Part shown: one piece after another, positions 246-33,666 of the stretch
How positions within the stretch are numbered: the first letter of the stretch is position 1
Layout of the letters: each line of letters starts with the position of its first letter
Source: Antedon mediterranea
Taxonomy: Eukaryota; Echinodermata; Crinoidea; Comatulida; Antedonidae
Direction: 5' to 3'
Assembly: GCF_964355755.1 (NCBI RefSeq)
Contig: NC_092674.1
Location: forward strand, 13,027,001 to 13,091,000
DNA: 64,000 bases
Notes under the pieces: generated by a model
The model's database searches: none
Told to the model about the DNA's origin: nothing
The model's input: the letters and a program-made list of their open reading frames with translations, nothing else
Position numbers and translations under genes: made by a program

Positions 246-1760
246 CTAACAATCAAAGGTTATAAATGTCATGTTATTATGTGATTACAAAATATATTAT
301 ACTAAGCAGTCCTAAACATATTACAAAAGTGTGCTTAAAATGTCACATAATTTGCAAGACCATAACCCCCTTTTCCTTTTTATCCAGCATATAAATGTAA
401 TTTTTATCTTGCTATTAAAACCATGGCAAACCTAGTGAGGGCTTACTGTACCTACCTCTACCTACATTACATTTTGTGTCATAGCTTAATTGCACTGCAT
501 AGTAATTGAATGTGCATTTGATGTAATAAATAAGTATACATCTAACTTTCCATGGTTGAATGCCTAATTCGAATCCCACTGAGGACCACTTTTTTAAAGA
601 ATAATTTTTGTTTGTGCTGGTTATGACCGTCTTCCTTTTAAACTAGAACTCTGTCAACATTCCGGGTTAAGATCATTAGTGTTGCAAAGTTTGCTACAAA
701 AAACTGGGCGGTAAAAAAGTTTTCTATACATTAAAAAAAAAGTAACTATAATGAAGTAAAACAATTAATGACATTCTTGAAATTTGATTACTGAGCTATT
801 GAGCTTTGACCAAATCTGACTTAATTTTTACACTATTTTTTAATTACAAAAAAAAGAAAATTAGAATTAGATGTTAACAGGCCTTTAACACTAAATTATG
901 ATTAACTATCTCTCAATATTTATTACATTGTTATTATCTCAATATTAGTTACAGTAGAAAAGCATTAAACAAATCCTCAGACGACAGTTGAATTAACAAA
1001 CAAACAAAACCAACAAGCAAACAAACAACAAACATACAGGGGCGAAAACATAACCTCCTAGACAGAGGGAATAAAAGTGTTCATTCTAAGCATTCTCAAA
1101 TTGTCTAACAAATGTGTTGATTACTAAACAATTTGACCACAAAATTCATTTTGCTTTAAATCCAAAGCTTACAAATATTCAAAAGGAACCTTTTTGGACA
1201 GTGTACATCCAGCTGAAATAAATTAGGATTTTGTTAATATGTATAATGAGCAACTGAGAGGATACATTTAATATCAAATGATATGTCAACAACTAAAATT
1301 TAAAGAAATATAGAACAAATACTTAATGTACTTTCATTATTTATTATATGTATTTAATTATGTATAATACTTCAGTTTATAGTTTTGTAAAATATGAGAA
1401 AAATAGCAATAAAGGAAGCATGGTTCTGTTTATTTGTGATTATAAACAATTCAATTTAGATTTACAATTTAACAATACAATGTCAATACTGTAATGATAA
1501 AAAAGAAATATTAATCACTATAAAATTTGTTTGGGAGTATCATTTTCATTTTAATATATCTGTAATTAATCATTCTTTCAAACAAATATACAGGTACATG
1601 GTGGATGGTCAATAGATTGCTCGATGATCAGACAAGAAGAAACTAGCCTGAAATTGTCAATGATAATAATAAACCTTTTTCATTATATAATGTAAAAAAA
1701 AAGAATAGAACATCTATATTATTAACATAATTTCATTACAGTACTTAATAACAAACTTAC
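246..1760. other. Intron-like AT-rich stretch, no gene seen
   Basis: There is no coding signal beyond chance ORFs. The stretch contains short A/T runs and an AAAC-rich tract near 1000-1035. It sits between two minus-strand ankyrin exons and is most simply intron. Confidence 0.5.
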
Positions 1761-1877
1761 CTTGTTTGTATTGTAAATGTCCATACTTCCTTCCTGTATG
1801 AAGAACACAAAAATATTCCTGTGTTCTTCATATTGAATATTTGCTCGAGCACATACTTGCATAGCATTGTCTCCATT
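1761..1877 (-). CDS. Ankyrin-repeat gene, exon
   Basis: Seen: 117 bp (39 codons, phase 0-0) on the minus strand, bounded by the acceptor CTAG (1881-1878) and the donor GTAAG (1760-1756). The translation starts NGDNAMQVCARANIQ and ends GSMDIYNTNK, a variant ankyrin repeat (DGxTAL...A...G start; D-I-x-N-T/K turn at the end). The middle, YEEHRNIFVFFIQEG, is longer than a standard 33-residue unit, so the second helix is probably extended. Spacing and phase match the exons at 6278-6373 and 155-245. Confidence 0.65.
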
Positions 1878-2551
1878 CTAGTAAAAAGTGAAAAAATAAA
1901 GTGCACCAGCTGTACTGCATATATTTTAAATAAGTTTAACAAAAAGGCCAGAGAGGCCAGGGGAGAGTGGGGTTGGTTGAATCAAATTTTCTAATTTTGA
2001 CCATAATTATTTTTTTTTTGGTTGCTTTGGTTAAGCTGTAATTAACAGTGTATGTTCACTAACATTCCTTCAGGCAACACAGTGAATTATATGGACATCA
2101 GAAAACATATTTAGAAAATACATATTAAGAAATTACCAAGATGAGTCGACCGATTCAACCAACCCCTTCATCAGGGTAGGTTGAATCACATAGTGGGGTT
2201 AGTTGAATCATGAAATAATATGTAATAAATACAATGATATCTTTAATATATATTTATTAAGATGAAAACCACATTATAACAAATATATATTAATTAATAA
2301 ACTACTATTAAAAAAACTATTTCATGATATATAAAGCTGCTGCACTATTATGTTTTTAAAATGTTAGTTATTATTACACGTAAAAAGCACCATAACATAA
2401 ATATGAATTGTTTAAAGAGTTAGGCTTTTTAACTAAATTGTTTACTTGAGTTGTTTAAAATAATATATTCGAATTACAGGAACAAACTTGGCACAACAAG
2501 AAATGTAATTAAATGTATACAGTAAATGTTTACGTTTACATGAAAAACTGG

Positions 2552-4174
2552 TTACTCGCAAACCGAGCAAATGAATGTGCGTCCATTTTCGGTGCACTCC
2601 ACATGTGACCTTTCTTCACAACCCTCCGCTAAACACTCCACAAATTTCACAATACCAGTCAGTTCCCTTACTTGGTTTTTCTTTTTGAGTGTTGTTTGGC
2701 GTTTTCGACTTTGATTTTGATTTACCTTTACTTTCACTTGCAGATTTCCTTTTCATTATTGCCTCTTTTTCTGGGGTGTCAGTCAGAATTGCAGATTTTA
2801 AAGTTTTTCTGCCATGGCCTTTGTTTTTTCTTGGTGGAGCAACTGGAAATGGGCGAATAGTTTCCGGGCTAAATGGCAATCTTCGGCATGCAGCAGATGT
2901 GGATGGTTCATCCTCTAAAATTTCATTGGGTGTTGACAGTTGACTTGCATTGACGACAGGTGGTGGAATTTCAAAATCATCATTTTCTGCTACTGGCTCG
3001 TTTTCTGTCAATGGCTCATTTTCTGCTACTGGCTCGTTTTCTGCCACTGGCTCATTGTCTGCAATTGACTCATCTTCTGCAATTGGCTCATCTTCTGCTT
3101 CTGGTTGATCAGTCGTATCAGCAGGTGCAAAGTCGAAATCCTCAAAGATGTCTCGGTTAAATGGAAATATTCCACACTTGCGAAACCCATTTGTTATATT
3201 TATAGGCGTATTTGCCTTAGAAAGTGCCTCTTTTACCACACCTGGGATGTCATAGATGGTCATTCTTTCACCGGGATGAGTCTTCATCCATGAATCCTGT
3301 GCAGACCGCAAGTATGTCTTAAATGGACCATATACGCTTCTATCCAGTGGCTGGAGTTTGTGACTCGTGTGGGGTGGAAAGGAAAGTATGACAATACCAT
3401 TTTCCTTAGCAAAGTCAAGGGTTTCTATTGACAAGTGTGGTCCTGCATTGTCCAATAATAATAACAATGGCTTCTCTTTAGATGGCTTTGAAAAATTGGC
3501 GAAATGTTTGATGAAAGCAAGGAAGTCATCTTCTTGCATCCATCCAGATCCATTCGCTCTACCAATGCTTCCTGGTGGTCCATCGCGGATGAAATAGCCC
3601 TGATACTTAACCCGAGGAAATATGAACATAGGTGTTGTTGCATTACCTACTGCGTTTATTGCTTGGCACACAGTAACTAGAACACCTCGCTCAGCACTTA
3701 CAATAGCTCCGACTTGCTTTTCTCCCTTTTTAGCGACAACCTTTGATGGCTTTTGCACTGTTGTTGCCCCGGTCTCGTCCAAATTCCATATATCATTTGG
3801 AGCAAATTTGTGCCTGTTTGAAACATTGTTCCGGTTAAAATTCATAGCTCTCGCTAAACTTGTCGCTTCTGCAGCTCTTATACTAATATTTGGGTGACGC
3901 TTCAAAAAAGAACAAAACCAATCCTTCCCTGCTTTCTGGTTTTCAGTCCAACTTTGTGGCAAATCTACTTCATATGCTATGGCTAGCTCATATGCAAACT
4001 TCCTTACATCATCTGGCGTCAAACCAAAATACATAGCAGCAGCTCTCAATATATATTAAACCAGCGTTTCCTCTTGGTTGTCACTAAACACCTGTCAATT
4101 TCGGACATATCCAACGTGTGTGTCAGTTAATGCTCTTGTCACTTCAAGAGGGGTATTCAAAGCACCATCGGCAT
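2552..4174 (-). pseudogene. pogo/Tigger transposase exon 2, DDE_1 catalytic domain, broken
   Basis: Seen: after the acceptor at 4175 the frame meets a TGA and, about 15 codons later, a TAA before the long ORF starting near 4049. That ORF carries CENP-B-like DNA-binding remains (SWTENQKAGKDWFCSFLKRH) and then the DDE_1 core: IWNLDETG, LLLLLDNAGPH and the SFPPHTSHKLQPLDRSVYG block. An acidic, repetitive PVAENEP linker and a basic tail follow. Near 2620 a frameshift splits a C-terminal Cys-rich domain (WYCEIC..., then C...C...HVEC...FICSVC) resembling the PHD-like finger of many invertebrate Tigger proteins. Three disruptions in an otherwise well-preserved sequence suggest recent inactivation. 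Confidence 0.8.
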
Positions 4175-4260
4175 CTGAAAATATAGTTTAATGTATACAG
4201 TTAGCTAATAGTAATATTTTAATACCTTATTATTATTTTTATACATTTCAGTATCCATAC

Positions 4261-4426
4261 CTTTCTTTAGTTTGTTGACAAGTTTTTGGAGAGTACTGTA
4301 ATTGACATCAAAGTCTTTTGCCACTGATCTTACAGACAGGTTCTCCAATATCACAATTCGTGCTGCTCGTTTTAAAATTTCTGGGTTTTTCCCCCGTTCG
4401 GTTTTTCTCTTATGAGTTCTAGGCAT
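4261..4426 (-). CDS. pogo/Tigger transposase exon 1: psq-type helix-turn-helix
   Basis: Seen: starts MPRTHKRKTERGKNPEILKRA (first 20 residues or so) and continues with a helix-turn-helix pattern including LSVRSVAKDFDVNYSTLQKLV. This is the pipsqueak-like DNA-binding domain found at the start of pogo/Tigger transposases. The reading frame runs on into the intron, but the donor G|GTATGG at 4261/4260 gives a phase-1 junction. Joined to the acceptor at 4175/4174 it restores an aspartate codon and an open continuation (DADGALNTPL...). The inferred intron is 86 bp (4175-4260). Confidence 0.7.
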
Positions 4427-4910
4427 GACTGTATGTTGATAACTGAAAAATGCAAACCAAAGATCATTAGAATTAACAAAAAATAGGTAGCGCTGGCAGT
4501 CGTATACTAGGCCTTATAGGCTATAGTAGCCTCCATAATTTAATTTTAATAACTATGCCTATAGTATAATAGTAATACAGTAAATTATTTGAAAGATGTT
4601 TATTTATATTTAATACTTACTTAATACTTAATAATAATACTGTAATTTTAGGCTAGGCCTAGTGTAGCAATGTAGTTTAATTTCTTACAATTTACATCTT
4701 TAAATTTCTATTCTGTATAAGAACATTTCTATAGTTAATATTATTGAGTTGAAAAGGTTTAAAACTACATAAATTAACATAAACAATGCACATTATTATC
4801 TTGGGGTTGGTTGCATCACGTGATGGGGTAGGTTGCATCACCTGATTCAACCAACCCCATAGGCACAGACAGCATTAATTCGTGTCATAGAAAAAAAAAA
4901 CGTGGCTCAA

Positions 4911-4934
4911 CCATGGAGGTTTATACCTCCATGG
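4911..4934. mobile_element. 24-bp palindromic insert (CCATGGAGGT family)
   Basis: Seen: 10-bp arms CCATGGAGGT / ACCTCCATGG around the 4-bp spacer TTAT, flanked on both sides by CTCAA (4906-4910, 4935-4939). A second copy of the same design lies at 62930-62959, flanked by TTTAA. The 5-bp direct repeats look like target-site duplications. Confidence 0.55.
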
Positions 4935-5199
4935 CTCAACCAAGAAGCTTATCATATAATATTTTACCCTAATATATGTGTTATATAAGACTACTAAATA
5001 TTTCAGGAAAAACGATCAGTATAAATAAACAAAACGAAAATCTTTACAAATTTGAAAAATGTACTTACAGGCATAAATCGAGCTGGATTTTTAAAACAAT
5101 AGGTTAATAGTACAGAAGTATTAGACTTTGAGGTAGAAATAAATATGCTAAAGCTGAATTTTTCAGGATAGGTCCCTAATGTTGTCTGAAACAACTTAC

Positions 5200-5900
5200 T
5201 AAAAGTCCCCGGGTTTCCCCGTTGTGCTTCAACCCGATTGGGCCATTTTTCAAAATGGCGGCCATCTTAAATTTATTTACCATTATGCTGACAAATACTC
5301 AGAAGACCCATATTTATATTCACTGTAATGAATAAGTTTAACAAGATGGTCAGAAATGCCTGTTTTGACCTTTGACCCTAAATTTGGATTATCTCAATAT
5401 CTCATCAACGACTGGCCGTAGAGACTACAAAGTTGTCCCAAATTATTTGGAATGCCCAACTTTCTATTCACTTTAATGAAAAAAAAAACAAATTCCTTTA
5501 GAAACCTTCTATTTTGACCTTTGAACTATTGAGGTAGGCATAGTTATTTTTATAGACATCTTGGTGATCGATAGGATACAAAATTGATTTCAAAATTTAT
5601 AACTTTGACCCTAAATTCTCAATACCGCATCAACTGCTGGCCGTAGAGACTTCCAAATTGTCCTAAATTAAGCAGTGTACCCAACTCTCTATTCACTGTA
5701 AAGAAAAATACTAAAAGCCTTTAGAAACCACCTATTTTGCCATTTGAACTATTTTTCTGGCCAATACAATATTTTATATCATAATTATATAGAAATCTTG
5801 GTGATCGATAGGAATACATAAGCGAATTTGTTGTCAAAATATTCCAAAACACCCATGTTTTTTACCTTTGACTTTAATCACTACATTATGATTTAATAAT
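5200..5900. repeat. Degenerate dispersed repeat with two internal copies
   Basis: Seen: a block beginning near CAAAATGGCGGCCATC and containing two imperfect copies, roughly 220 bp apart, of a segment including CTGGCCGTAGAGACT and CTATTCACT (5411-5486 and 5630-5703). TTTGACC motifs recur between them. No ORF. It looks like part of an interspersed repeat; the class is not recognised. Confidence 0.45.
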
Positions 5901-6277
5901 TTAAGTATTTGTATAGCGTTCGTCGATATACATCACACGACGTAACGCTTCGGAAATGTTCGCCTGGAAACTACAGTACATAATATTCTGGTCCCTGGAT
6001 GGAACATGATATCACGTGTAAACCGCAATGGGCCGGGCCCAATGCAGTGCGTACAAATTGTTTATTAGATCGCTGGCAATAATGCATGCATATAAAGTGT
6101 AATAGCCCTCCGACGTACTAACAAAAATGGAACGTCGCGGTTTTCTAGGCGCTGAAGCTGCGAAGTGAACACGAATAATTTTTACTGTATAATATTCCCC
6201 GACGAAAGTACTCGCGTTCCCCGCTAGGCTCCCCGACGAGGTGGCTATACAGCCCCCGTAGATTATTCACAACTTAC

Positions 6278-6373
6278 TTGGTTTTTGCGATTTAAATCAG
6301 CATGCTGGGCTAATGCTATGCAGCTTGCAGTTTGACCTACGCTAGCAGCTAACAAGAGTGGTGTATTTCCATC
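6278..6373 (-). CDS. Ankyrin-repeat gene, exon
   Basis: Seen: 96 bp (32 codons, phase 0-0) with the acceptor TTTTTAG ending at 6374 and the donor GTAAGT from 6277. It reads DGNTPLLLAASVGQTASCIA, then LAQHADLNRKNQ: a clear ankyrin repeat (DGxTPLxxAA..G...C...L...ADLN). It is the nearest upstream neighbour of the exon at 1761-1877 and in compatible phase. Confidence 0.75.
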
Positions 6374-7555
6374 CTAAAAAAATAGAATATAATATTTCAT
6401 ACAATATTACAAACTTCTTAGCAACGAGGAGGCATGGTTATTAATGTGTTTAATTTGTTTAAACACATTAATACTAACTATTCATATATCTTTTTAAGTC
6501 ATTTAATTCAGTCATGATTTTAACTTTTCATAAATAAAAGTTTACACAGTGAAGATATAATACACTGATCCATTCCATATTCTTTCAAAAACAAACATCC
6601 ATATTTTTATTGTTTTTTCCTGTGCAAACATGGTTTTATACTGCTACAATACTATCTATACATGTTGGTACTGTATTACTAAAAAAATTTAATATATATT
6701 GTTATAATCAAAATACAACTAATATGACCATTCTAAAACTTCTGATGAAGTTTTATAAATTTCTGTAAATAAATCAATGATTGAAATGATAAAATAATGG
6801 CATTTCAACAAAGTATTAAAAAGGCTGTGTACATCATAAGTTAACAGTTTTTAGTCTCACTGAGCTTTATATCTCCATGATTTGGTAGACTGTGTTTGTA
6901 TTTATTTGTGTTTGTATCTGTGTATTTGTATTTGAACAGCAATTAACATTAATAAAATATAATATAAATACAATTGAAGGTTTTCAATGTAAATTATTTT
7001 AAATAAGATAATTTACATTGTCAAATCTCACTCTGAATACATTTAACTCGATTTCACATTAAAAGTTAGAGTGTGGTAAGACCTTAAACAAACAATAAAT
7101 TAATAGGACACATTATAACAATATTTAATATAAAAAACTCATTACAATCCAGCAGAGAAATAATATTGAAAAAGGTTTTCATAACATTGCAGAAGTAATT
7201 AATTTTCTTCCTGGTCACCTTATTCCAGCTGTGACAATTGTATTATCATCGCTCTGCACAACCATGAAGAAACATCAGAATGGTTGACAATATTATAATT
7301 ATTAATAAAGGACAATAGGAAAAGGATCTGATCCTATTATAATGCACTTTTATATGATCTAGCGAACTTAAGTAGAGCAATAAGGTGCAAATGCTATTCA
7401 TATAATTAATTCACGTCACCATCGATAACATGTTATGTAATACAAGACTATGTAAACAATGAAACTTTATAAAATGATTTTATATTTTTAATATTTTTTT
7501 AAACGTTTTTAACATTTTTAGCCTATTTGAATTTTAGCAATTTATAAATTGTAAG
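6374..7555. other. Intron-like stretch, no gene seen
   Basis: AT-rich sequence without coding signal or clear repeat structure apart from short imperfect inverted words. It is probably upstream intron or flank of the ankyrin exon. Confidence 0.4.
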
Positions 7556-7848
7556 GTTTTAGGAACATTCTAATGGTTTTAATCCTTTTAAAGCTGTTTT
7601 TAATCCCTTTAAAGCTGTTTTAAACTATTTTAATCTCCTAAATCCTATTCAATTTTTATACCTTGTCATTTTTACACCGTGTTTCATAACTTATATTTTT
7701 TTGTGCAATTATGTGTGTGTACATTATATATTTTATTGTATATCTATTTATTATTTTACTAATAATTGTCAATCTTCAAGAAGAATTTCTGTTGTTATTT
7801 TATGATGATGATTGACAAATAAAGCTTTTCAGTATTCAGTATTCAGTG
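7556..7848 (+). repeat. LINE 3' end fragment with CAGTATT tail
   Basis: Seen: a T-rich segment with repeated TTTTAATCC/TTTAAAGC words, then GATTGACAAATAAAGC and a terminal short tandem repeat CAGTATT x3 (near 7828-7848). Short tandem repeats directly after an AATAAA-like motif are typical of CR1/L2-type non-LTR retrotransposon 3' ends. No ORF remains. Confidence 0.45.
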
Positions 7849-8740
7849 TCTGTGCAGATTGTGTTGGAAGGCATTGGATAATAAGACACAAATAAGTGTA
7901 CAAGTGTGTCATTAGCTGTGAATGGTAGGCTGCACTATCAAAGACGGGTAGATGTTATTGTGTTCGGTGTATTTTAATACACCAAACACACTATTTAAAA
8001 ATAGTTTCAAAAAGAGATGATAGCATTCGGTTTATTATAAAGTTGTAGGTATGGTTATATGTTAATGTTAAAAAAACTATAGTGAGGCATTTAATGAATA
8101 GGAAAACTGCCTTAAAATGTGGCATGTTTGGAGAAACTATTCTCATCATCAGAAGAGAATGATAATGTTACTATTGTAGTTTTGATGGAATGAAACTATG
8201 TTATGGAATGAATCTACAAAGGCATATTAGTAGTCGCTGTTTAAATACTGTATTCATTTGGATAATGTTTTCAGACTGATTAAAATGGATATGAAAGGGT
8301 TCCTAGCAATATCATTTTATTGGCTCAACGTGTAGATCAATCAGTTTTAAGCTTGCCATAGTCATACTTAATGTTTTGGAGGACGACAACGCCCTCAAAA
8401 CGCCCCTGAGAAACCTGTGAAAAACTTTTTGTGACGTCACTAAAAGTTATTTTTGTATTACAGAGATAGGAATTTAGCAGTAAATCATTGATTGATGCAA
8501 AAGCATGGTAGTAATTACTTATTGCTTTGATATTTTTATTCTTGGATAAGTATGTTAGCCTAATCGAATAAAATTAATTCATATTATCAACCAAGTTTTT
8601 TTTAAAACGGATTTTAATTTCGTTTTTCAAGGCCATCTTTTACGAAATTCATAGCCAAATGCCTATCTTGCTGGGTACACGGAGTTATTTTGCGCATGCG
8701 TGAGAATCACAGAGTCGACCACCTTGGCCTCTCTCTCGAC

Positions 8741-13257: not shown

Positions 13258-13434
13258 CGTATACGATCCGTATACGCTGAAAACGTATACGACGTATACG
13301 GATCGTATACGATTTCACTGTTTACATTATTTCCACTCTGTTGCTCCACAAAGAGTTGGCGTCGTATACGTTTAGCATACGTAACGTATACGTTGTTTAT
13401 TCATGATAAGAATATCGTATACGGGACGTATACG
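13258..13434. repeat. Cluster of nine perfect CGTATACG palindromes
   Basis: Seen: perfect CGTATACG at 13258, 13269, 13284, 13293, 13304, 13363, 13385, 13416 and 13427, with an imperfect tenth (CATATACG) at 13438. The first group is itself a larger inverted repeat: the 19-bp CGTATACGATCCGTATACG (13258-13276) is exactly inverted at 13293-13311. An 8-bp word is expected by chance about once per 65 kb, so this density is striking. The cluster ends about 80 bp left of the Tc1-like element. Confidence 0.85.
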
Positions 13435-14570
13435 AATCATATACGAACAAACTAGGCCATTTTATAAATTATAATAGCAGTAATGAGTAGAATAGAGCTA
13501 AATAAAACATTTACAGTACTGACTACATGTCATATACCAAGTCCACACATTTTACACGGGTGTGAAAAACGCGTGACTCGCGTGTAATTATGTACTGAAA
13601 GGACAAACTACATTCACTCATGCATGACGGCACTGAGTAATTCAGCTTCAGCGAACTGCTATCGTTTTTATTCGTATGTTTATCAAACCGAGAGACGACG
13701 GATGTGTCGCGTCAAAACAAAAGATCATTTCCTACGTCTCACAAACAATAGAATAGGAAATAATACGTACAGTGATTATAGCTAATACTTTCTTTCTACT
13801 GTAGTTAAAGTGCTATATAATTCGAATTTTATAACACAGAAAAATGTTAACATGATGTTAAAATTAGATCGTGGAAATATTTCCTAATAATTCGACGTCG
13901 AGAAGAAGTACATAGTGTGTTTCGCTGCATAGCGATCTCTATGGTTACTGTCAATGACCTACTTTAAACAACCCTGGATTTTGCGCGTACTACCTTGTTA
14001 CAACAACTTAATTGCATTCATCCACGTCACAGGGCTTCGTGTGGAAAACCGTCTGTGTGTATACTGTGCCGACAACAGCAGTTTAAATTTTAATGTATCC
14101 TTCAAAAGTGAAAAAGAAAACCGTCCCATTGTTAAAAAATAAATCATAAACGTGTGGCAATTTTGTAGTATTGTATTTTGTTTTATTTTGTGAATTGGAT
14201 TCCGTTATTAATATTGATAAACAAAATATTCATAGAGAGGTATTTTCTAAACTGCATTTTTTAATTATTTTATATTGAAATATTGCTCTGATTTTTATTT
14301 TCGTGGGAACGGAATTTCCTGACGGGCGTTTCCAAATAGACGTCACAGAACAATGTTCAATGTATTGTTTTGTGTGTAGTCAAAGGAATCTATTGTTATT
14401 TTTCTCAATATACAGCGTGTTTATAACAAAATAACAGCACCTGCATAAGCTTGTATGGGTGAAATACATTTGTGTGAAACATTGTCTTCGTCTAGTTAAA
14501 TTGTAATTAAATGAAAATCCAAGTTGCGCTATGTGTGGGTGGGCGCTACGTTAATGAGAAAAGCTAGCTG

Positions 14571-14652
14571 GCCAATTGTGTACAATATGTTTGTGCATGT
14601 AAAAAGTTTTATGTTCTCCAGCCAATCAGAGCAGGGCTCACAATCTATAAAG
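14571..14652 (+). promoter_or_regulatory. Histone-like promoter of the BEN gene
   Basis: Seen: CCAATTG (14572-14578), CAGCCAATCAGA (14619-14630) and TATAAAG (14646-14652), followed by an initiator-like TCAGTT at 14682-14687 and the ATG at 14703. The inferred leader is only about 20 nt. CCAAT box plus TATA plus a very short leader is the usual layout of replication-dependent histone genes. The 12-bp CCAAT word is identical in the transposase promoter. Confidence 0.6.
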
Positions 14653-14702
14653 TATGAGCATTTCAATGTTCATGTACCAGTTCAGTTTTCTGAATCAACA
14701 AA

Positions 14703-15092
14703 ATGTTTACATCTATGTCAGCTCGTCAACGTTCAAGTATTCCACGCGAGGCGTTAGTTTACTTTCCCGAAGAAGAAAGTTTAAGTATCGTTAAAACAAA
14801 ATTGATCGTCGGTGATGTTTCGTCTGGAGCAGCAGTCGAGGTGCTATGGGAGGGGAATTTGCTCCCTGCAGTCATCCGCAAACTGTCCAATAATCCCCAT
14901 GAATTGCGTGAATTGGAAAGAAAATTGTTGAAGAGAGGGCAAGCCCAAGACACTGACGTGGATAGCGAAGAAGACTCTGATATTGATACAGATGACGACG
15001 AGCAACCAACAACGTCAAAGCGTGCGGCAATGCTAACAAAAACGTCGACACCGAAACCAAAACAGGCTGCAAAAAAGACGAAGGGCAAAGAC
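14703..15092 (+). CDS. BEN-domain protein, exon 1
   Basis: Seen: begins MFTSMSARQRSSIPREALVY and continues through a compact module (YFPEEESLSIVKTK, VGDVSSGAAVEVLWEG, LPAVIRKLS) of about 75 residues. A very acidic stretch (DTDVDSEEDSDIDTDDDE) and a Lys/Thr-rich basic tail (TPKPKQAAKKTKGKD), nuclear-localisation-like, follow. The N-terminal module resembles the small beta-rich head seen on invertebrate BEN proteins; I cannot assign a named fold. The exon ends in phase 0 at GAC|GTAAGT (15092/15093). Without splicing the frame stops two codons later. This ATG is the first after the TATA box. Confidence 0.75.
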
Positions 15093-15230
15093 GTAAGTTG
15101 ATTAAAAAAAATTTTATTCAATAATTTAACTCTGGGGTTGTTAACACACACACCAACACACATTTCAATGCCCATTTTTTTACTCTAAGACTTTAAACCA
15201 AATTTACGATTTATTTTATCTATTGTACAG

Positions 15231-15884
15231 GTACCCAGGGTGTTTCTTCGCGGGGACGTAACAGCCGATGGTATGAATGTTGAAGAGTCAGATGTAGAAG
15301 AACCAGAACCTGAAGTACCCCCAGCAGTAGATGTGTTTGACAGTATTGCAGGAATGGAACGGCGACTACGCGAGTACATCGACACAAAACATAATGAAGC
15401 CCCTCCTTGGTTGGCCGACCTGACGCAAAATATAAAAAATATCGTCGCTGAACTGATCGTCCAGGAATTTCAAAATAACCGTGTCGCCGCCCCAGCAGAA
15501 CCAGAGATCCTCGACAACTCGGTGGGTGACGACGTACTGCATAGAGATGTCGTTGCAGAAGTAAAAAGGTGGGCCACGTCTGAAAGAAATTTTGCACTCG
15601 GACTTGTAAGAAAACTATTCACCAAGGATGAGATGCGAATGGGTAACGTTAATGGAAAACAGGGCCAGCAGCAACTAGATGTCGTACGAATACAATGGGT
15701 AAAGGATCGAGTAATCAAATCCTATTCCATTCCATTGAATGAACAAACACGAACGTGGAAGCTTTGTGTGTTAGCAATTGACGAGGGATGCCGGCGTCTG
15801 CGAAATCCAAGACCTCGAGCACCACTCCAACCACGAGCACCGATGCAACAAATTCAACCTGCTGAACCAGTCATCGATTTCTAA
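15231..15884 (+). CDS. BEN-domain protein, exon 2
   Basis: Seen: after a 138-bp intron (15093-15230) ending in TATTGTACAG, the frame continues VPRVFLRGDV to a TAA at 15882-15884, giving a 347-residue protein. It holds an acidic linker, a possible coiled coil (IAGMERRLREYIDTK...) and, at about residues 248-323, a BEN domain: ALGLVRKLFTKDEM, GNVNGKQGQQQLD, WVKDRVIKSYS, then WKLCVLAIDEGCRRLR. BEN domains bind DNA and chromatin and often act in repression. Here it could bind the element ends, control transposase, or modify target choice; that is inference. The stop is 18 nt before the histone stem-loop. Confidence 0.85.
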   Translation, partial: VPRVFLRGDVTADGMNVEESDVEEPEPEVPPAVDVFDSIAGMERRLREYIDTKHNEAPPWLADLTQNIKNIVAELIVQEFQNNRVAAPAEPEILDNSVGDDVLHRDVVAEVKRWATSERNFALGLVRKLFTKDEMRMGNVNGKQGQQQLDVVRIQWVKDRVIKSYSIPLNEQTRTWKLCVLAIDEGCRRLRNPRPRAPLQPRAPMQQIQPAEPVIDF

Positions 15885-15902
15885 TTATATCTCAAAACAA
15901 AC

Positions 15903-15918
15903 GGCTCTTTTCAGAGCC
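15903..15918 (+). terminator. Histone mRNA 3' stem-loop of the BEN gene
   Basis: Seen: GGCTCTTTTCAGAGCC, a 6-bp stem with loop TTTC, preceded by ACAAAC and followed by ACCA. This matches the metazoan replication-dependent histone stem-loop and its flanks, bound by SLBP, with cleavage normally just after ACCA. It lies 18 nt after the stop codon, a histone-like distance. No AATAAA lies between stop and loop; the nearest is at 16030-16035, downstream. Confidence 0.85.
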
Positions 15919-15927
15919 ACCAAAAAA

Positions 15928-15940
15928 ACAAAAGAGATTT
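15928..15940 (+). promoter_or_regulatory. Histone downstream element (U7-type) of the BEN gene
   Basis: Seen: ACAAAAGAGATTT starting 9 nt after the stem-loop. AAAAGAG is complementary to the CUCUUUU segment at the 5' end of metazoan U7 snRNA. The same 13-mer is present after the second stem-loop in this element, while the spacer between loop and downstream element differs. Confidence 0.75.
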
Positions 15941-16587
15941 AAAGCATTTAAAATGGCAAACCCCACATAAAAACCAGTCACCTTCAAAACATACCACATT
16001 AAACTCTAAATAATAATTATTATTATAATAATAAATAACATGTTGTGTGAAATAACACACAACATAAAAAGGCATAAACAAATGAAAATTAATATAATAT
16101 TGACAGATTGAATAATTTCAGGTAAATTTGACGTTTCGATCATTTTCGCAATGTTCAAGTATCTGACTTGATAATTATCAAATTAATTAAGAATTGGAAT
16201 TACCATAGTTTTATTTTGATTAAATTTAAGCATGACCGTACAACATTTCTATTCCATTTTATGTTTTCAATCCCAGGTCTTTTATACTGTGTAGACGCGC
16301 TGTTCACGGTCTAGTGGTCACATAAACAAAACGGAACAACCGTACATGCAACACATAACGCTGCAGTCATGATAATAAATAATTTCTATAGCGCACATAT
16401 CCACTAAAAGTGCTCAATAATTGATAAATTATTTGATGTACTTTTCAAGGCTTAGCATTTCTTAAGTTGTTTGAATAAAACTAATTTCCATATTTTAATG
16501 AATGGAATGTATACTATACTTTTATATTGTATGTAAATATGATGAATGACTCGTTTTTGTAAGTGTGTGTCAAAATGTAAAACTTTC
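15941..16587. other. Spacer between convergent genes
   Basis: About 650 bp of AT-rich sequence with no ORF, between the histone-type ends of the BEN and transposase genes. It has a TAATAATTATTATTATAATAATAAATAA run near 16008-16035 (given here only as a low-complexity tract) and an AATAAA at 16030-16035 on the plus strand that could act as a fallback poly(A) signal. Confidence 0.5.
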
Positions 16588-16600
16588 AAATCTCTTTTGT
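16588..16600 (-). promoter_or_regulatory. Histone downstream element (U7-type) of the transposase gene
   Basis: Seen on the minus strand: ACAAAAGAGATTT, identical to the element behind the BEN gene, beginning 8 nt after the stem-loop. It contains AAAAGAG, complementary to U7 snRNA CUCUUUU. Confidence 0.75.
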
Positions 16601-16608
16601 CAATTTAT

Positions 16609-16624
16609 GGCTCTGAAAAGAGCC
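16609..16624 (-). terminator. Histone mRNA 3' stem-loop of the transposase gene
   Basis: Seen on the minus strand: GGCTCTTTTCAGAGCC, identical to the BEN-gene loop, with the same upstream ACAAAC. The 3' flank is ATAAA rather than ACCA. It lies 29 nt after the transposase stop codon. No AATAAA separates the stop from the loop on this strand. Confidence 0.8.
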
Positions 16625-16653
16625 GTTTGTTTTGAAAATGTTGGTCTTAAACT

Positions 16654-17676
16654 TCAGTATCCGGAAGCTCTTCCGTTTCGTTCGATCACGACAGGTATCA
16701 CTTTATGAATATGTCGAATGTATCTGCCGCATAATTCAGGTGTCAATGTGGTCTTCCACCAATTTTCTATGCCATTGATAAGTTCCTGTTGATTTTTTGG
16801 TTTTACATGTCGGCGAAGATTATTCTTCAGTTGATGCCAGACGTTTTCAATCGGGTTGAGATCTGGTGATTCGGGTGGAGTCTTCCACCAATTTATCCCA
16901 TGTTCTTCCATATATCGTGTGGATAAATTACTTGTATGTTTAGGATCATTGTCTTGTTGGAACCTATGTGAATCAGGGAACATGTGACGAATATACGGTT
17001 GCAGCGTAGCCTCAAGTATTTCGTTAACATAAAACTCCGCATTCATGTTTCCCCCGAAAATTAGGAAATTGGTGGCACCTCTGAAACTGATTCCCCCCCA
17101 AACGTGAACCTTTACCGGGTGTTTAGCCTTTGGTTTAAGTTTTGGCTCCTCTCCTTTTTTGTAGAAGCACACCTTTCCATGCTGCTCCAGGTGAATGGAA
17201 GTCTCGTCTGTCCATATCACGTCTTCAAACATATCTCCATCATCTAGCATTCGGGTACAAAATTCTAACCGCTTCACCTTATTTACATCGCGAATCATTT
17301 GGCAGTATTTTGGTCCGCTTTTCTTCCATCCTAACTTGTTTCTTCTTCTTCTTATTGTGGATGCTGAAACATTTAGATCAAATACGTCACGGAAGATACC
17401 CGATATTTGGTAGGAAGTTAACTCATCATCATCTCGGTAAAGGTCGTCAATGAAGTGAGCGTGCTCGATAGTGAATTTTGGTTTACGCCCTGATCGAATT
17501 CTTGCAGCCCATGAACCGGTTTCCTTGTAAGTTTTAATTATTCTCCCCACAGTGTGTCTCTCAACTTCTACCTGCTCTTCTTCCCGGAGAACATCAACAA
17601 TTCTTCTTTGGCGCATGCCCAGCTCGTTCAAACGGACAATCCGTTCTCTCAGATACAATGATAGTTGACCTTTCAT
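16654..17676 (-). CDS. Tc1-family transposase, DD34E, intact
   Basis: Seen: a 340-residue ORF, normal length for Tc1. Residues 1-115 hold two helix-turn-helix units (LYLRERIVRLNELGMRQRRI...; GRKPKFTIEHAHFI...STIRRRRNKLGW). The catalytic triad is D157 (IWTDETS), D242 (FQQDNDPKH) and E277 (SPDLNPIENVW), with exactly 34 residues between D242 and E277. Other hallmarks: VHVWGGIS and the PPESPDLNPIENVW block. No stops or frameshifts. It should bind the CAGTACTG termini and cut and paste the element at TA sites. The gene converges on the BEN gene, and its mRNA would end in a histone stem-loop. Confidence 0.93.
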   Translation of the reverse strand: MKGQLSLYLRERIVRLNELGMRQRRIVDVLREEEQVEVERHTVGRIIKTYKETGSWAARIRSGRKPKFTIEHAHFIDDLYRDDDELTSYQISGIFRDVFDLNVSASTIRRRRNKLGWKKSGPKYCQMIRDVNKVKRLEFCTRMLDDGDMFEDVIWTDETSIHLEQHGKVCFYKKGEEPKLKPKAKHPVKVHVWGGISFRGATNFLIFGGNMNAEFYVNEILEATLQPYIRHMFPDSHRFQQDNDPKHTSNLSTRYMEEHGINWWKTPPESPDLNPIENVWHQLKNNLRRHVKPKNQQELINGIENWWKTTLTPELCGRYIRHIHKVIPVVIERNGRASGY

Positions 17677-17711
17677 TTTTGGACAGTGAATTTTTTATTC
17701 AGAAACACGAA

Positions 17712-17789
17712 CTTTATACCTGTCAAGAACCACGCCCAAATCTTATAAAAGAATTATCCAATCGACGACGTAAACAATCTGATTGGCTG
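17712..17789 (-). promoter_or_regulatory. Histone-like promoter of the transposase gene
   Basis: Seen on the minus strand: CAGCCAATCAGA (17789-17778), then a reverse CCAAT (CGATTGGA, near 17764-17757), TTTTATAAG (17750-17742) and TATAAAG (17718-17712), with the ATG at 17676. The CCAAT word is a 12-bp exact match to the one upstream of the BEN gene. TTTCTGAAT shortly after the TATA box also recurs in both leaders. Confidence 0.6.
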
Positions 17790-17829
17790 ATATCTCCTTC
17801 ACGATGATGCGTGATAAAAAATAGATACC

Positions 17830-19044
17830 AATTTTGCATATTTTAAATGAATGTTTAAATGTACATATATTTGGTTTTGTTTACATTATCTATTTTGCAT
17901 TACAAATATACATTTATAAATAAATATACGTCGGAAACGTTTAAAATAAAGAGGTTTTTAAAGTTTTTTTCTGGATATCGCGTCAATCATTCAGACACGG
18001 TTCAAAAACTTTGTAATATAATACAGTAATATTATTTTTCATATTAGAATATAATAGAAGTTTCCATCAACTAAAGTATTTTCAATTAAGTTTTTTTTCA
18101 CTTTGGCCGAATTCGAAGCAAAGCCATTTCCGTCATCCAAAACGAACGAATTTAATTGGGCATTCGCAAATAATGTTATTGTTATTTTGAGGTGTATTTT
18201 TTCATAAAAACTTTAGTTGGGTTTTTATGAATATAAATTTTACCTTGTAATTACTAAAATGACTAGAAATTAAATCTGAAAACTTTCCGTTTATACTGTA
18301 GAGTACTGTGGAGTGGAATGCGTTGATTGGTTGGGTCATACCATTTCCTAAGGTCATAACCAACACGCTATGCATGCCGTAGAGTGTATAGTGTGAAATA
18401 GGCCTAAAAATTAGTTACTGTTTTGTTTATGACGGATTATATATTATACTGTACGTTGTTAATTATTAAAAATACTAGAGTAACTGGAAATGTCGCGTTG
18501 TAGGCCTATCGTTTTTCAAACACCCTACTCAACAAGTACAATGAGCCAGTGGAATTGGCCGCCGAGAGCCGTTATCACCTGATGAATAAACACGCAATGA
18601 TTTGTGGCCTTGGACTAATACTCGATTGGGCTAATTTTAATGGAAAAATATATGCATTGCAATTTATACATCAAACAGAACAGAATATTTATTATTAAAC
18701 CAATTCGACATTCGGTGTTTGGATTATTATTTTATTTGGCCTTCTAAAATCATCGGATTCTCATCCTTTGTTTTGGTTTTTTTATGGGTAACAATAGACA
18801 GAAGTAAACTTTGTTACATTACAGTGACAGGCGTGTTCTGGTTACATAATCATGGTCGCGTTCCTTAACACAAATTAAATAAACAACAACTATTCAAGCA
18901 CGCACTGTTTCACGATCGTCATGGACCGTGAATTCCACATTGTAGCAGGAAGTAGCTGACGTCATGGACCACACGCCGATTACAGGTCCGCGGTAATTAC
19001 ACATATTTTACACGCGTGACAAACGCGGTTTATGGTACATGATT
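17830..19044. other. Right arm of the Tc1-like element
   Basis: Non-coding AT-rich sequence between the transposase promoter and the right terminus. Near the end it holds GTCACGCGTGTAAAA- and GTGTAATTA-like words, similar to words inside the left terminus (ACGCGTGACTCGCGTGTAA, 13570-13588), perhaps subterminal transposase sites. No ORF. Confidence 0.45.
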
Positions 19045-19545
19045 TGTAGTCAGTACTGTAAATTGTCATTACAACAAATACGTACGTAGGCTCTGGCCTA
19101 GGGCTAGGCCTCTAGCTAGCACCAGCCATTAGATAGGCCTAGTCTAGTAGTATTAATTATTAATAAGTAGTAGGAGCTAGAACATAAGATCATATTTATT
19201 TCTATATTTATTAGATAGCCTAGGCTACCGATAAAATTCAAACAACGTTTTTCGCAAGTAAATAAAGTACGCTAAACAGGTATACTACTAGGTAGGCCTA
19301 GAAAAAACAACCCATAACAAAAAGTCTTAGTAGTTATAGCTCTATAGCGGTTAGCCTTATAGTCTATCCGGCTTAGTAGATATAGAGCTGTCGCCTATGT
19401 ATCACCTACTAGTAGATAGATATTTGATAGATTTTTTATAGTTGTTAGTAGATTTTTGCCTCATTAGCATATTTCGCGATGATATTAGTAGGCGACACCT
19501 ACTAAATACAACTATGATTAGACTACCAATAATCTATCTAGAATG

Positions 19546-24998: not shown

Positions 24999-27930
24999 AT
25001 CTAAATATACTTAATTATTTCGTTATGGGAAGGGGCCATTTTCACAAATCGACGTTGTTGTTTGCAGTTTTCCTTTATAAAATATGACAGAGGTCAGTCG
25101 CTCGGTTGCCTACAGTTCCAACTCGTGGTCGACTCGGCTCCCTGGTGGCCAATCATGCATATCATCGGGTGAATCATCGGGTTCGTCGTTCTCAATTCGT
25201 CATGCCACGTGCGAGCTTTGGGTGGTCAAATTACATCGTTAAGTTAAGCGATATTATTCCGCGACGTGTGTTGTAGCAATGGAGATGGAGTAACAATAAT
25301 TCGGCAATGCCGAAGAGGAAAACCATGACCCAAAACAGAAGTAAGGTCATTATAATAATTATTATTTAACGATGAATACATTCGGATTTTGAATATATAT
25401 AAATTGTATGAATTATGAATTATATATGAATAAAAAAAACCACAATTAGTGGTGATAGTAAATACAATTATATCGAATCTCAATTTATTCCCGGTAGCGA
25501 ACAGATTGAATTGCTTTCATTATTTCTGCTTGGTGATTAAGAAATCATAAAACATATCTTTCTTTATTTTCATGGTATTCCAATAATTGTTTAAAAAATA
25601 ACTACCCTCAACTTTAAATAACAAATTAAATAAGTCTACTAAACATTGTTGATTTCCCATGGACCCAACAATACCCCAACTATTTCATTAATAATTGTTT
25701 ATTTGTAACAGTTTATTTGAAATCCTTGTCCTTTGTTAATTCAATTGTGTGACAATTAAATTAGATTGTACATGCTTATGCTGTATATTATGTAAAAAGA
25801 TGATTCATGGTATATATCAGATTCTTAAAAAAGATCAACATTTTGAATTCTTAAAATGTGTTCTATATCTTTATTTGGAGTTAGACTCGTACTACATTCA
25901 TTAAAATGATAAACAAATAGCCGGCAGGCGTGTGTACAGAGGGGGGCTTATCAATGATGGAGGCATAAAAATGGGGGCGTAGGGTACCATTTTACCAGAG
26001 AGATGTAAAATAATTATTTAACAAACATTTAACTGGTTGGTTTTACTGCGTTCGCGTACAATTTATCATTTGGATTTTTTAAGTTATATGTAGGTTATGT
26101 TAAATTGTATTTATCAGTGACAATAGGTATCCCAATGTAAAAATTCAAATTAATGATGGTACTTTTTCTTTCAGTTAATCAGAAGGAACTTACTGAACAT
26201 AAACTTTTGCAATTTAAATGATTGAAATCGGATTATCCATTCAAAAGTTATGGTCCGTTAAAGTGCCCAAAAAACAGTGATTTTTGCTTGAAAAATTGCA
26301 CTTTTTCTAATTATATTTGAACCCATTTTTGAAGGGTTATAACTTTTATACTAATAATTTTAAAGTTCTTATTTTTTCCAAACCCATAGATACAACAGAG
26401 TTGTACAAGAAAAAATTTTTTTTGGGTGTCCTCGACATTTTTTTTTTTAGATATCGCCCTACAAAATTCGTCCGAGGGCTTTTTACGCGTGATTTTCCCA
26501 ATGTCTCAAAAATGCCCAAAAAGTTCCTGTCTTTAAATGATTCATAACTTTTGAACCAATGTGTGAATTAACTTCTTTTTTTTTTGCATTGCATAAAATG
26601 TAATATGTATTTTAGTAAGGTTATTTATATTGACAGGTAGGTAATTCTGAAATACAACATAAAATATTGTTAAAAAATGTTAAAATGTGAAAAAAAAAAA
26701 TTTTGCGTTAAAACACTGTGTGGGTATTGTTTCTTTTCATCAAATATTATTTTTCGTAAGTATACATTTGTTTAATAATTCTAGTATTTAAAGTTATATT
26801 TATAATCATATTATTTTAATTGATTTTCGAACCGCCAAAAATAAGAATTAAGCCCGTGCTTATTATGTGTTCGATTCCATTTGGAGCGCCGGGCCGAACG
26901 TAGACTCGGCCGCGCCTACTACAAGTTAAGTTATATAGGCCCCTAGCTGCTAACTAAGGTCTAAATAAAAGCCTGACGCTAAATTCTGCCTAAGAAATAT
27001 CGGGAAGAAATTTTTTATTTAACAAAGTAATTACCTCAATGGTATAATTGTAACATGTTTAATTTTATTTCCCTTTCGATTATTCTAACCGAAAGTTGCA
27101 CTTTGAATTGAAATATACGGAATAAAATTTAGGCCTAGAAACAGCGTAGACATACAACGGCAACACAGGCCAAAGCGCGTTTCGGCCGCCTACATAGAAT
27201 GGCTTACGGCCGCTGCATAGCAAAATCAAAGCTTCTTAAATTTCTTCGGTACATTTCTTCCTAACGTACTTGCTTTATATAGTAGATTTATAAATATTCC
27301 ACTTATTAAATAATTTAATAAATCGGTAAAATTGACGTTTCGAAGCAAATATTCCATGAGAGGCGACATTTTTCGACATGCCTCGTGTGCGGCGAAGACT
27401 AGTTCAGAAAATGGAACAGTCCACTGCAGGGGTTATCCAATCATTAATTAACGCGCTAATACATGCATACCATGCACATTGTCTGGGCGACGGTAATTTA
27501 GTAATAAGCGGAGAACTGAATCCCCCCCCGTAAGGAAAATGGTAAACACTGATATTTATGGTAGGGATTATTTTTTTCAGTGGTTGGTCTTGTTGGCCTC
27601 TTCGCACGAGGTCCACGCAAAGTCAAATAAAACGATGTGGTTTATCAAACAGAAATATAAATTAGCTTCAATTCAATACTAAATTAGCCAGATTTTGATA
27701 ATGAGAAAGACTAAAAAATTCAATTTTTATCGTTAAAATTGACATTTGAGGCGGATGTACATAATAATAATAACCGATTTACATATCAAAATAAAGAGTA
27801 TTTAAAGCCTGATAACATGCAACAAAAATTACTCCACCACCTATTATGGACCTCGTGCGATCGTGTTTTGAAAATGGGTAGGTGTTTTCCAAAGTTATTT
27901 TTAGCGCGCGGATTTCGGCTCGCCGGCTTT
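24999..27930. other. No gene seen; AT-rich with a CpG-containing patch
   Basis: Chance ORFs only. About 25040-25260 and 26870-27200 are locally richer in CpG (for example GGCCGCGCC near 26908). A segment at 26160-26530 has the look of an old interspersed repeat (GTTATGGTCCGTTAAAGTGC). Nothing could be assigned. Confidence 0.35.
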
Positions 27931-27936
27931 TGTACC

Positions 27937-28250
27937 TCATTTTTAAATGGTTCAAAAGTTATCTTTCCCAGCGTAAACAAATAGTTAAATATCATAATAA
28001 ATTATCTAAAAATACAAAAGTCAAAATTGGCATACCACAAGGTAGTGTCTTAGGACCAATTTTATTCATATTATTTATAAATGACCTTCCTCAATATGTT
28101 TACCCAGGATCATGTAGTATTTTTGCTGATGATGTCGTCATCTACACTACTGGAAATGCAATGGAAAATGTCAACATCAAACTGCAAACAATTATGAATA
28201 ACGTTGGAAATTGGTATAATCATAATAAATTACGAGTACATTCTAGTTCT
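27937..28250 (+). pseudogene. Non-LTR reverse transcriptase fragment
   Basis: Seen: FKSYLSQRKQIVKY, then the LINE block GIPQGSVLGPILFILFINDL and the catalytic FADDVVIYT, followed by NNVGNWYNHNKLRV. These are RT motifs of a Jockey/CR1-like non-LTR retrotransposon. The 5' part is missing, and after 28250 the reading dissolves into sequence ending in an AATAAATAAATAAATAAA tail near 28428-28445, probably the 3' end of the same LINE after an internal deletion. Confidence 0.8.
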
Positions 28251-29290
28251 CAAAAAAATAATTGTTTTTCCATACTTTTTCTTTTGAACGTTCTATTACT
28301 GATTGTTGTATTTTTTGTCTTGGATTTTTTAATTTTTGTGTTTTTAAGTTGTTTGCGAGACCATATTGGAAAACAGAAAATTATGATCTTTTTTTTCTGA
28401 ATTATGTTATCCTGCTTAAATATGTTTTAATAAATAAATAAATAAATTTCATAGGGGGTATTTTCATATTGCATTTTGTGTTATAAAATGTCGAGTGTTT
28501 CACCTGCTTTGATAGAAACAAAAATGTAAACATAATATTAGTGTATTGGTAAACACATGATGTACTGCTAACCATACCTAGTGTATTTGTGCACATAATA
28601 CTATAGTATGTGACATTTGAGACCGTTTTATTTGACACGACAAAGCATTTGACCTAAAAAACGTACATTATTATATATCCTAATGTAGTACATTTTGAAT
28701 GTTGACATGGCAGGAGAAACACTAAAAATGTTCCTTCTAACAGAGTTTTTCTCGGGTTACTTGGATTTCGGTGTATTGTTGTATTTATTGTAATGGGCTG
28801 TGTGCTCCATAGTTTAGAAACTTAGATACTATTTTAGTATTACAGGCGGATTAAAAATTTGTTGTTTATTATAAAACATAGACCTTTCAAAATACTAGGC
28901 CTACTTAGTTTATTAATGAAATATATCATAATTATAATATACATTTGGATTAGCTGTACGCGAGTGCAAATAAAACATCTAAATGAATATGTATTTGCAA
29001 AAAGCTAAAATTATGTTTTCGAGAATTTTTATTTTGACCACATACTAAGTGGTTAGTGTAACTTCACATTTATGATATATGAAACATTATGTTGATTAGT
29101 CACCTTAATATGGACCTTTGCCATATACGATGATTTAAAATTCAGAGTTTTAGTATTATAGTATTACAGTTGAACCCCCATGAGCGCTCACCCCCCGAAA
29201 GTTGGCTCCCTTAACGGCCGTACTTTCGAAAAGCCTGTTTGTTCTTCATCTAATTAGTTGACCTCCTGTAAGCAGGGGTAGTAACAAAGT

Positions 29291-31418: not shown

Positions 31419-32101
31419 TGGTGGAAGACCCACATTTTATAAGGAACAGAGTGAGAAAACAGAATAACAAGAAAACAAGAAATAAACACAACAAGACACG
31501 AAGACGAAGACGAAGACAACCATATTTGTTTGAAAGGAGAAAACCAGAAATTTACTTTAGCACAAAAGACAAGCTGAGATTATATTCGAATGAGAGAAGC
31601 AGATTTTTTTTTTTCAAATAAGCATTTAACCGGATCGAGACAAGCAGAATTGTATTTTTCAAATTTGTATTTTAACTGGATCGAGACAAGCAGAATTTTT
31701 AAATTTCGTATAACCGTTGGATGAAGACAAAGAAGATAATCGAGAAAGACACAAGAAGAATCAAAAGGGAAAACAGAAGCAAGAGGACAAGAACTGTTTC
31801 GTTTGGACACTTTCAACTTCACGCCGTTTTTTTTTCGATCGTTTTTTTTAATATTTACCTTTTTTGACCATTTTGAAAATTGATGAACACCTTTCGCATT
31901 TTTTGAATTCGTTGTTTGAACACTTGAACATTGTTGAACACTTTTTGCATTTCCTTTAATTCGTTTTTAATTGGATCCGAAGCATTTGGGGTAAGTCAAA
32001 ACCATTTTGATTTTTGATTTGTAACCTTGATTGAAAAGTGAGAGTTTACATATATATACACTAAATTGTTTTTGATATTTTGATTAATAAAATTATAAAG
32101 T

Positions 32102-32980: not shown

Positions 32981-33150
32981 TTCTTACGGAAACTACCCCC
33001 ACCATACCCATACCAACAGTCAAACAATTACTACCCTAGCCACCAGCAGGATTTTTAAAAAGGGGACTAGATGCCGCCTATAATCTGGCCCCCCATACAA
33101 AATATGACAATTTTAAGGCAAAATACTTAGGGAATTCAGATAAGATTGAC

Positions 33151-33666
33151 TTGTTACTTAACGACAGAAATTACGTTAAAGGAAATTTACCAGACGGTAG
33201 AAATGTTTTAACTTTATTTGACAGTGGTTCAACTAGAACTATAATCTCACAATCGTACGTTATTTCCTCACTTTATTTATCGCGTCTAAAGCCAGTTAAA
33301 GTGAACACAACTAAATTTCGATTAGGTAACGGTGACTTCTTATATGCCAACAACTTAGTGCAATTCGAATTATTTATCCAAGGACACAAATTTAAAATTT
33401 CAGCATTAATCGTTAAAAATTTGACAGGTATTGACCTGATATTTGGAACCGAAACATTGTCTGAACTCGACGGTACTTTAAATTTTAAGGAAAACACATT
33501 TCGCATTAGACCAAAGATTTTTAGCTTTCGTCCAGTACACAAGATTTTTCTTAAACCCGGTGAGACTAAAACAGTTAAATCAAAAGGAAGGGTTCCCGCC
33601 TTTGTACGCAATTATGATGTTGTTCTGCATGCAACCACCCATATTTCTAGGATACATAGATACTAA
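33151..33666 (+). pseudogene. Retroviral-type aspartic protease region, truncated pol
   Basis: Seen: VLTLFDSGSTRTIISQSYV carries the DSG active-site motif, then LIFGTETLSELDGTLNF, which fits the second half of a retropepsin (hydrophobic-G motif). The frame stops at 33666 and no reverse transcriptase or integrase follows, so the element is cut off early in pol. Confidence 0.65.

Follow-up and report, generated by a model that had tools for sequence, protein, structure and literature searches.

A Tc1-like transposon with a BEN-domain gene and histone-type 3′ ends in the crinoid Antedon mediterranea

The window analysed here, a 64,000-nucleotide (nt) stretch of the genome of the crinoid Antedon mediterranea, contains an element that, on its sequence, is a two-gene Tc1-like (DD34E; Tc1/mariner) DNA transposon, and both of its genes carry histone-type 3′ ends. 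The TA dinucleotides on either side set its span at 13514–19058 (Table 1). A preliminary description of the locus had placed the end correctly and the start one base late, at 13515, and its assignment to the Tc1-like transposons holds. The inverted arms including the flanks (13509–13539 and 19033–19063) are 31 nt long and 90% complementary. Like Sleeping Beauty and its kin, the element has TA flanks, inverted repeats and a DDE_3 transposase in which 34 residues separate the last two catalytic residues; unlike them, it has a convergent second gene, for a BEN-domain protein, and each of the two genes carries a histone-type 3′ end. The transposase scores 81.8 bits against DDE_3, and in an alignment of 41 sequences including the window's, D157 and E277 are present in all and D242 in 98%; the first D of the QQDND motif is presumably the catalytic one. 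Its sole match among solved structures is Sleeping Beauty SB100X (E 1.3e-24). The BEN protein (347 amino acids, encoded by two exons on the + strand) barely exceeds the Pfam BEN cut-off (24.4 vs 23.2 bits). Its relatives score 33.3 bits (P0121), 32.2 bits (locus L059) and 20.3 bits (L060, under the cut-off), and a search of 5.8 billion proteins returned a single match, from A. mediterranea. BEN domains in general may bind DNA or chromatin, and the same is possible for the protein of the element. Both frames are open in the window copy, and the single other near-identical copy is broken.

An exact GGCTCTTTTCAGAGCC stands at the 3′ end of each gene, 18 and 29 nt past the stop codons of the BEN and transposase genes, and the two lie over the gathering score of Rfam family RF00032 (40.6 and 38.0 bits vs 34); no other Rfam family exceeded its gathering score in the window. 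Each 3′ end consists of a 6-bp stem with a 4-nt TTTC loop and A-rich flanks, located close 3′ of the stop. The two exact occurrences of the 13-mer ACAAAAGAGATTT follow 9 nt (BEN gene) and 8 nt (transposase gene) behind the stems; the 3′ ends are as first described. The stem-loops lie ∼690 nt apart in convergent orientation, and 28 nt around both stems are identical between the two genes. When GGCTCTTTTCAGAGCC was allowed up to two mismatches, the mean count in shuffled sequences was 0.01, and none of 100 shuffles reached the two occurrences seen in the window. A relaxed pattern (6-bp perfect stem, TTYN loop, and AAAGAG downstream) was present twice in the window and once across 60 simulated 64-kb sequences. 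By itself ACAAAAGAGATTT stands out less (with one mismatch allowed, 0.31 occurrences are expected and 4 of 100 shuffles reach two). The transposase gene is intronless, a single open frame, as are histone-type genes.

The genome used for comparison measures 354 Mb in 18 contigs, and all comparisons between copies were made within it. It contains 99 exact matches to GGCTCTTTTCAGAGCC, whereas the reversed control gave none. Contexts were read for 37 of the 99 (including the window's two and that of L053), the other 62 lying untranslated in five clusters, and one of the 37, L013, is devoid of histone-like flanks. In 25 distinct host histone contexts the stem is preceded by CAAACCAAAC or close variants, and the distance from the stem to an AAAGAGA-like core is 11–14 nt, compared with 12 and 11 nt in the element; AAAGAGA itself is present in 16 of the 25 and the full ACAAAAGAGATTT in three. 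The stem-loop, upstream flank and downstream element of the transposon thus agree with the host histone signal in sequence and spacing. Like the replication-dependent histone genes, which use the SLBP/U7 route, the element has the TTTC loop, a CAAA-type upstream flank and a purine-rich downstream element at the host distance. Its genes also share a CCAAT box, a TATA box and a short 5′ leader with many histone genes of the host (of 20 host histone upstream stretches, 15 contain a CCAAT box in either orientation and 16 a TATA-like box, although both motifs are common). The element differs from histone genes in its products, a transposase and a BEN protein instead of histones, and in the intron of the BEN gene. 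In the genome-wide Rfam search, 75 of 62,870 first-look candidates were scored, which yielded 76 matches, 72 of them over the cut-off, and one control genome gave a sub-cut-off match. Recent spill-over from a histone cluster was rejected, as the nearest stem-loop cluster on the contig is ∼1.9 Mb away.

Copy counts within the genome rest on protein and pattern searches. The second copy (L052, C4:12.82 Mb) is 91–96% identical to the window element across most of its length and has its own flank. The left kilobase is missing from it, frameshifts are present, the BEN intron contains an insertion, and its end coincides exactly with the right inverted repeat. On the transposase gene of this copy, the stem-loop is undamaged. 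Since this copy is both close and broken in both genes, it carries little information on selection. A more distant BEN gene at L053 (C4:14.61 Mb) has a premature stop, and its coding DNA is 60% identical to that of the window (193/322). The stretch from its stem-loop to the downstream element is identical at 42 of 46 positions, vs 59 of 105 in the sequence further downstream. A related gene at L058 has a decayed stem-loop, and in the BEN fragments L055, L056 and L057 the stem-loop region is lost or has no recognisable stem. P0121, an annotated A. mediterranea BEN-domain protein encoded at L054 (C5:1.315 Mb), is 69% identical to the window BEN protein over 27% of its length. No stem-loop was seen at L054, and no transposase was found near the gene; P0121 could be either a domesticated copy or a relative encoded by the host.

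The whole-genome search with the transposase gave 24 matches, which by our own count represent 15 loci, or 16 with C1:26.11 Mb. The 3′ flank was read at 11 of the 16 (that is, all except C3:13.49, C7:14.28, C8:18.86, C5:15.38 and C10:11.67 Mb, at the last of which only the N-terminal part matches). Seven have an intact stem-loop, one has a decayed remnant (L069), and three are without it. At L068 the transposase, 47% identical to that of the window, is followed after its stop by a second, B-type stem, AGCCCTTTTCAGGGCT, which is preceded by CAAACCAAAC and followed by ACGAAAGAAATTTGATAGC. This 16-mer has 11 exact matches in the genome vs none for the reversed control (the genome-wide counts of stem types cover types other than AGCTCTTTTCAGAGCT), and it stands after transposase C-termini at five loci of a diverged subfamily that is 33–52% identical (L068, L050, L071, L075 and L077). 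B-type stems score 30.6 and 26.2 bits in Rfam, below the gathering score. Compared with the window stem, both bases differ in pairs 1 and 4 of AGCCCTTTTCAGGGCT, and the loop is the same. While L068 and L050 are 97–98% identical, L068 and L071 agree at 37 of 47 positions in the signal, 223 of 348 in the coding sequence and 87 of 180 downstream. Covariation was analysed on nine sequences (six distinct), a set that excludes the decayed L058 and L069, the BEN end of copy 2 and host genes. Every pair holds, with a score of 0.40 vs 0.199 in shuffled alignments and 1 of 500 shuffles as high, although related sequences can beat shuffles without any structure. When the structure was slid by one to three columns, no pair was changed on both sides. 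Although the statistics are modest, the paired changes agree with the pattern predicted by selection on pairing.

The diverged elements also include a group, subfamily C, which is represented by L059 (C2:9.90 Mb). Like the window element, L059 has inverted repeats (TACCGTACTGAC) and a convergent pair of a DDE_3 transposase (38% identical) and a BEN gene; unlike it, there are ∼8 kb between the repeats, and AATAAA is found downstream of both genes. Within the interval C2:9904500–9913500 the element lies at about 648–8628, and a similar TACCGTACTGAC-type end occurs in L057 at 9412. A convergent BEN gene was not seen at L070, another member. In a FastTree phylogeny, which includes fragmentary copies and was midpoint-rooted, L068 and L069 are placed beside L059 and L070, and the window lineage stands apart. 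This grouping implies that the signal was lost in subfamily C or arose twice.

The same signal is found behind other genes. A third type of stem, GGCCCTTTTCAGGGCC, is matched twice in the genome, at an H2A gene and at a fragment of a DDE_1 (pogo/Tigger-type) transposase (L078, C3:10566700–10567900; 65.7 bits). At L078 the stem-loop (C3:10566895–10566910, − strand) lies some 50–60 nt past the DDE_1 stop and is followed by CAAAGAGATTT. An unnamed multi-copy gene family (C-terminus EQGGESMH...; no Pfam match over cut-off) ends in tandem B-type stem-loops, the last of which has an AAGAGAT-type element. L073 (C6:27339252/27339300) has two exact copies, L074 (C7:11334806/53/83) has three, and L076 (C4:14534935) has one that is exact and a second with 1 mismatch. 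At L029/L067 (C4:12860470–12864301), two tandem A-type stem-loops follow an unnamed coiled-coil gene with weak, sub-cut-off Tudor/Agenet-like similarity, whose best protein matches are unnamed; L029 and L074 share 79% over ∼100 nt around the signal. The copy number of the unnamed families suggests that they are mobile. To us, these cases suggest that what appear to be mobile elements have repeatedly made use of the signal. Histone-type stem-loops also occur 3′ of Prp18-like fragments at L025 (C2:25272316) and L065 (C10:13570090); as L065 also holds an H4-like stretch, both look like chimeric histone pseudogene repeats. Viral contigs gave no match to the stem-loop plus AAAGAGA.

The preliminary description had known of no DNA transposon with this signal, which was overstated. 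According to Gross and Williamson 2011 (PMC3169594), Tm1-HH of the root-knot nematodes (Meloidogyne) is a DNA transposon family that contains the histone hairpin. However, Tm1 is of the Mutator/Foldback type with 9-bp target duplications, whereas the window element has TA flanks and Tc1-type ends and is not a Tm1 element. Moreover, the Tm1 elements with the hairpin are neither autonomous nor coding and are sorted apart from the transposase-encoding one, and the authors left selection open. Here the hairpin stands on transposase and accessory genes, with paired changes. Tm1-HH is therefore a partial precedent only. It was also the sole one found in the open full-text literature that combines the histone stem-loop, SLBP, U7 or BEN with transposons, a scope outside which most subscription papers lie.

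In histone mRNA, according to PMC5706932, the stem-loop is bound by SLBP, the U7 small nuclear ribonucleoprotein assists in recruiting the cleavage factors, and once S phase is over the mRNA has a short lifetime. As diverged relatives have retained the signal with paired changes in the stem, it looks selected in these transposons, and it was perhaps gained more than once. In our preferred reading the genes of the element have histone-type 3′ ends that work and are under selection, and their expression is biased towards S phase; we put the probability of this at about 0.62. The sequence features make a working histone-type 3′ end very probable; by analogy with histone genes, S-phase enrichment of the mRNA would then be likely, and given both, the odds would be even that a gain in copy number is the reason for selection. 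The host SLBP and U7 machinery would cut the transcripts just past the stem-loop, leaving them without a poly(A) tail. If histone biology is a guide, the mRNAs would accumulate and be translated mainly in S phase and be destroyed afterwards, so that the transposase and the BEN protein would be made in that phase. One step further, transposase would be present as replication forks move, and an element that has already been copied could jump into unreplicated DNA, with the excision gap refilled from the sister chromatid. Each of these two events would raise the copy number. Reasons why S phase would pay for transposons are given in PMC3878927 and PMC3687335; the latter notes that S-phase synchrony would benefit transposition and that it is unknown for mariner.

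Several observations weigh against this reading. The BEN gene has a predicted 138-nt intron, which is atypical, as histone genes are without introns (PMC5706932). Both stem-loops are followed by poly(A) signals, one of which, an AATAAA, starts at 16030, ∼110 nt past the BEN stem-loop; together with the intron, these signals make polyadenylated (fallback) isoforms possible. For host U7 RNA, one search gave no match and its controls were silent too, and another gave 70 matches vs 86 in the reversed control. No stem-loop was found after the transposases of L059 and L070 (subfamily C) and L072 or behind the BEN gene of L068, and a scan of L050, the near-identical copy of L068, likewise gave the transposase stem-loop only; the methods included a hairpin script whose negatives are not absolute, since it requires a downstream AAAGA-type word and for this reason misses L071. 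In copy 2, the BEN stem-loop has lost 8 nt. Two other measures of the covariation analysis do not stand out: two pairs altered on both sides, the number observed, also arise in 128 of the 500 shuffles, and the observed value for further pair types is attained in 493 of them; with two stem types only, there are few independent paired changes, hence the modest statistics. Finally, according to PMC3878927 and PMC3687335, Sleeping Beauty transposase prolongs G1. The preliminary description had asked whether other copies keep the stem-loop and downstream element; the diverged relatives do, with paired changes, and so does the transposase end of copy 2 for the stem-loop, but the BEN end of copy 2 and the three distant transposase loci do not.

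The convergent arrangement, the spacing of the two stem-loops and the presence of the signal on both window genes would also suit a compact 3′ end, independent of poly(A), whose role is to keep the genes apart and limit read-through and double-stranded RNA, without selection for S-phase timing. We consider this unlikely, as the convergent relatives L059 and L070 do without the signal and L068 has it only on the transposase. In addition, dependence on SLBP should confine mRNAs to S phase in dividing cells, regardless of why the signal was selected. Selection could instead have acted through the egg, where non-polyadenylated, SLBP-bound mRNA would be stored together with histone mRNA for use during the rapid embryonic cycles, so that insertions could reach the germ line; histone mRNAs are stored in echinoderm eggs. 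A preprint (PMC12803260) reports that the stabilisation of histone mRNA in oocytes does not depend on the cell cycle, and PMC3687335 argues that transposition pays only in the germ line. Storage in the egg is inseparable by sequence from expression tied to S phase, and we assign it a low probability.

That the two 3′ ends share 28 identical nt, and that the BEN stem of copy 2 is broken, would be expected if a histone 3′ end had been picked up once and spread between the genes by inverted duplication or conversion, without function. The preliminary description had argued against inverted duplication because loop and downstream element are conserved while the spacer differs, an argument that is weak alone given this identity and gains support from the conservation in relatives. 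Passive capture is highly improbable: the signal is kept at L053 and, with paired changes, at the B-type loci while the flanks diverge, the covariation result already strains such an origin, and several unrelated mobile-type genes carry the signal. Simple inverted duplication as the whole story was rejected, because relatives with diverged flanks keep the signal. A chance origin was likewise rejected on the shuffle and simulation figures given above, and these, with the second copy elsewhere in its own flank, practically refute chance or an assembly artefact.

The features of the element are listed in Table 1; the word AGCCAATCA, found upstream of the transposase gene, has four further occurrences in the window. 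Rfam and the hairpin script found no histone-type stem-loop in the window beyond the two reported. The stretch 13258–13440 (+), adjoining the left end of the element, contains many CGTATACG-like palindromic words. Elsewhere, a long open frame at 2616–4055 (−) resembles a pogo/Tigger-type transposase, and the frames at 27882–28400 (+), 32099–33666 (+), 38778–39713 (−) and 46587–49858 (+) resemble pieces of retroelements (reverse transcriptase, gag-like, and long terminal repeat-type polyprotein).

Table 1. Features of the Tc1-like element, in window coordinates
Feature	Position	Strand	Remark
TA flank, left	13512–13513		presumed target-site duplication
Left terminal inverted repeat	13514–13539	+	starts CAGTACTGACTACATG
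BEN gene, upstream CCAAT box (14622–14626) and TATAAA (14646–14651)	14622–14651	+	core-promoter-like; common motifs
BEN gene, exon 1	14703–15092	+	ATG at 14703
BEN gene, intron	15093–15230	+	138 nt; prediction based on reading frame and GT-AG splice sites
BEN gene, exon 2	15231–15884	+	holds BEN domain; stop TAA; frames joined
Histone-type stem-loop GGCTCTTTTCAGAGCC, BEN gene	15903–15918	+	exact; Rfam
Histone-downstream-type element ACAAAAGAGATTT, BEN gene	15928–15940	+	
Histone-downstream-type element ACAAAAGAGATTT, transposase gene	16588–16600	−	
Histone-type stem-loop GGCTCTTTTCAGAGCC, transposase gene	16609–16624	−	exact; Rfam
Tc1-like transposase	16654–17676	−	340 amino acids, single open frame; DDE_3, DD34E; D157, D242, E277
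Transposase gene, upstream AGCCAATCA (17780–17788) and TATAAG (∼17742–17747)	17742–17788	−	common motifs
Right terminal inverted repeat	19033–19058	−	boundary also present in copy 2
TA flank, right	19059–19060		
Downstream words considered for U7 pairing: ACAAAAGAGA; B-type ACGAAAGAAA			candidate

On a wider scale, we tentatively suggest, at slightly less than even odds, that in this crinoid genome at least three seemingly unrelated families (the Tc1-like elements with BEN genes, a DDE_1 pogo/Tigger-type family, and the unnamed family with tandem stem-loops) took the SLBP/U7 route, became tied to S phase and multiplied by jumping during replication, which would make this a recurrent strategy of DNA transposons. 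If the preferred reading is true, a 3′ end held to be special to histone genes would also serve protein-coding genes of mobile elements. The stem-loop would then be no safe marker of histone genes, and RNA sequencing of poly(A)-selected samples would miss such mRNAs.

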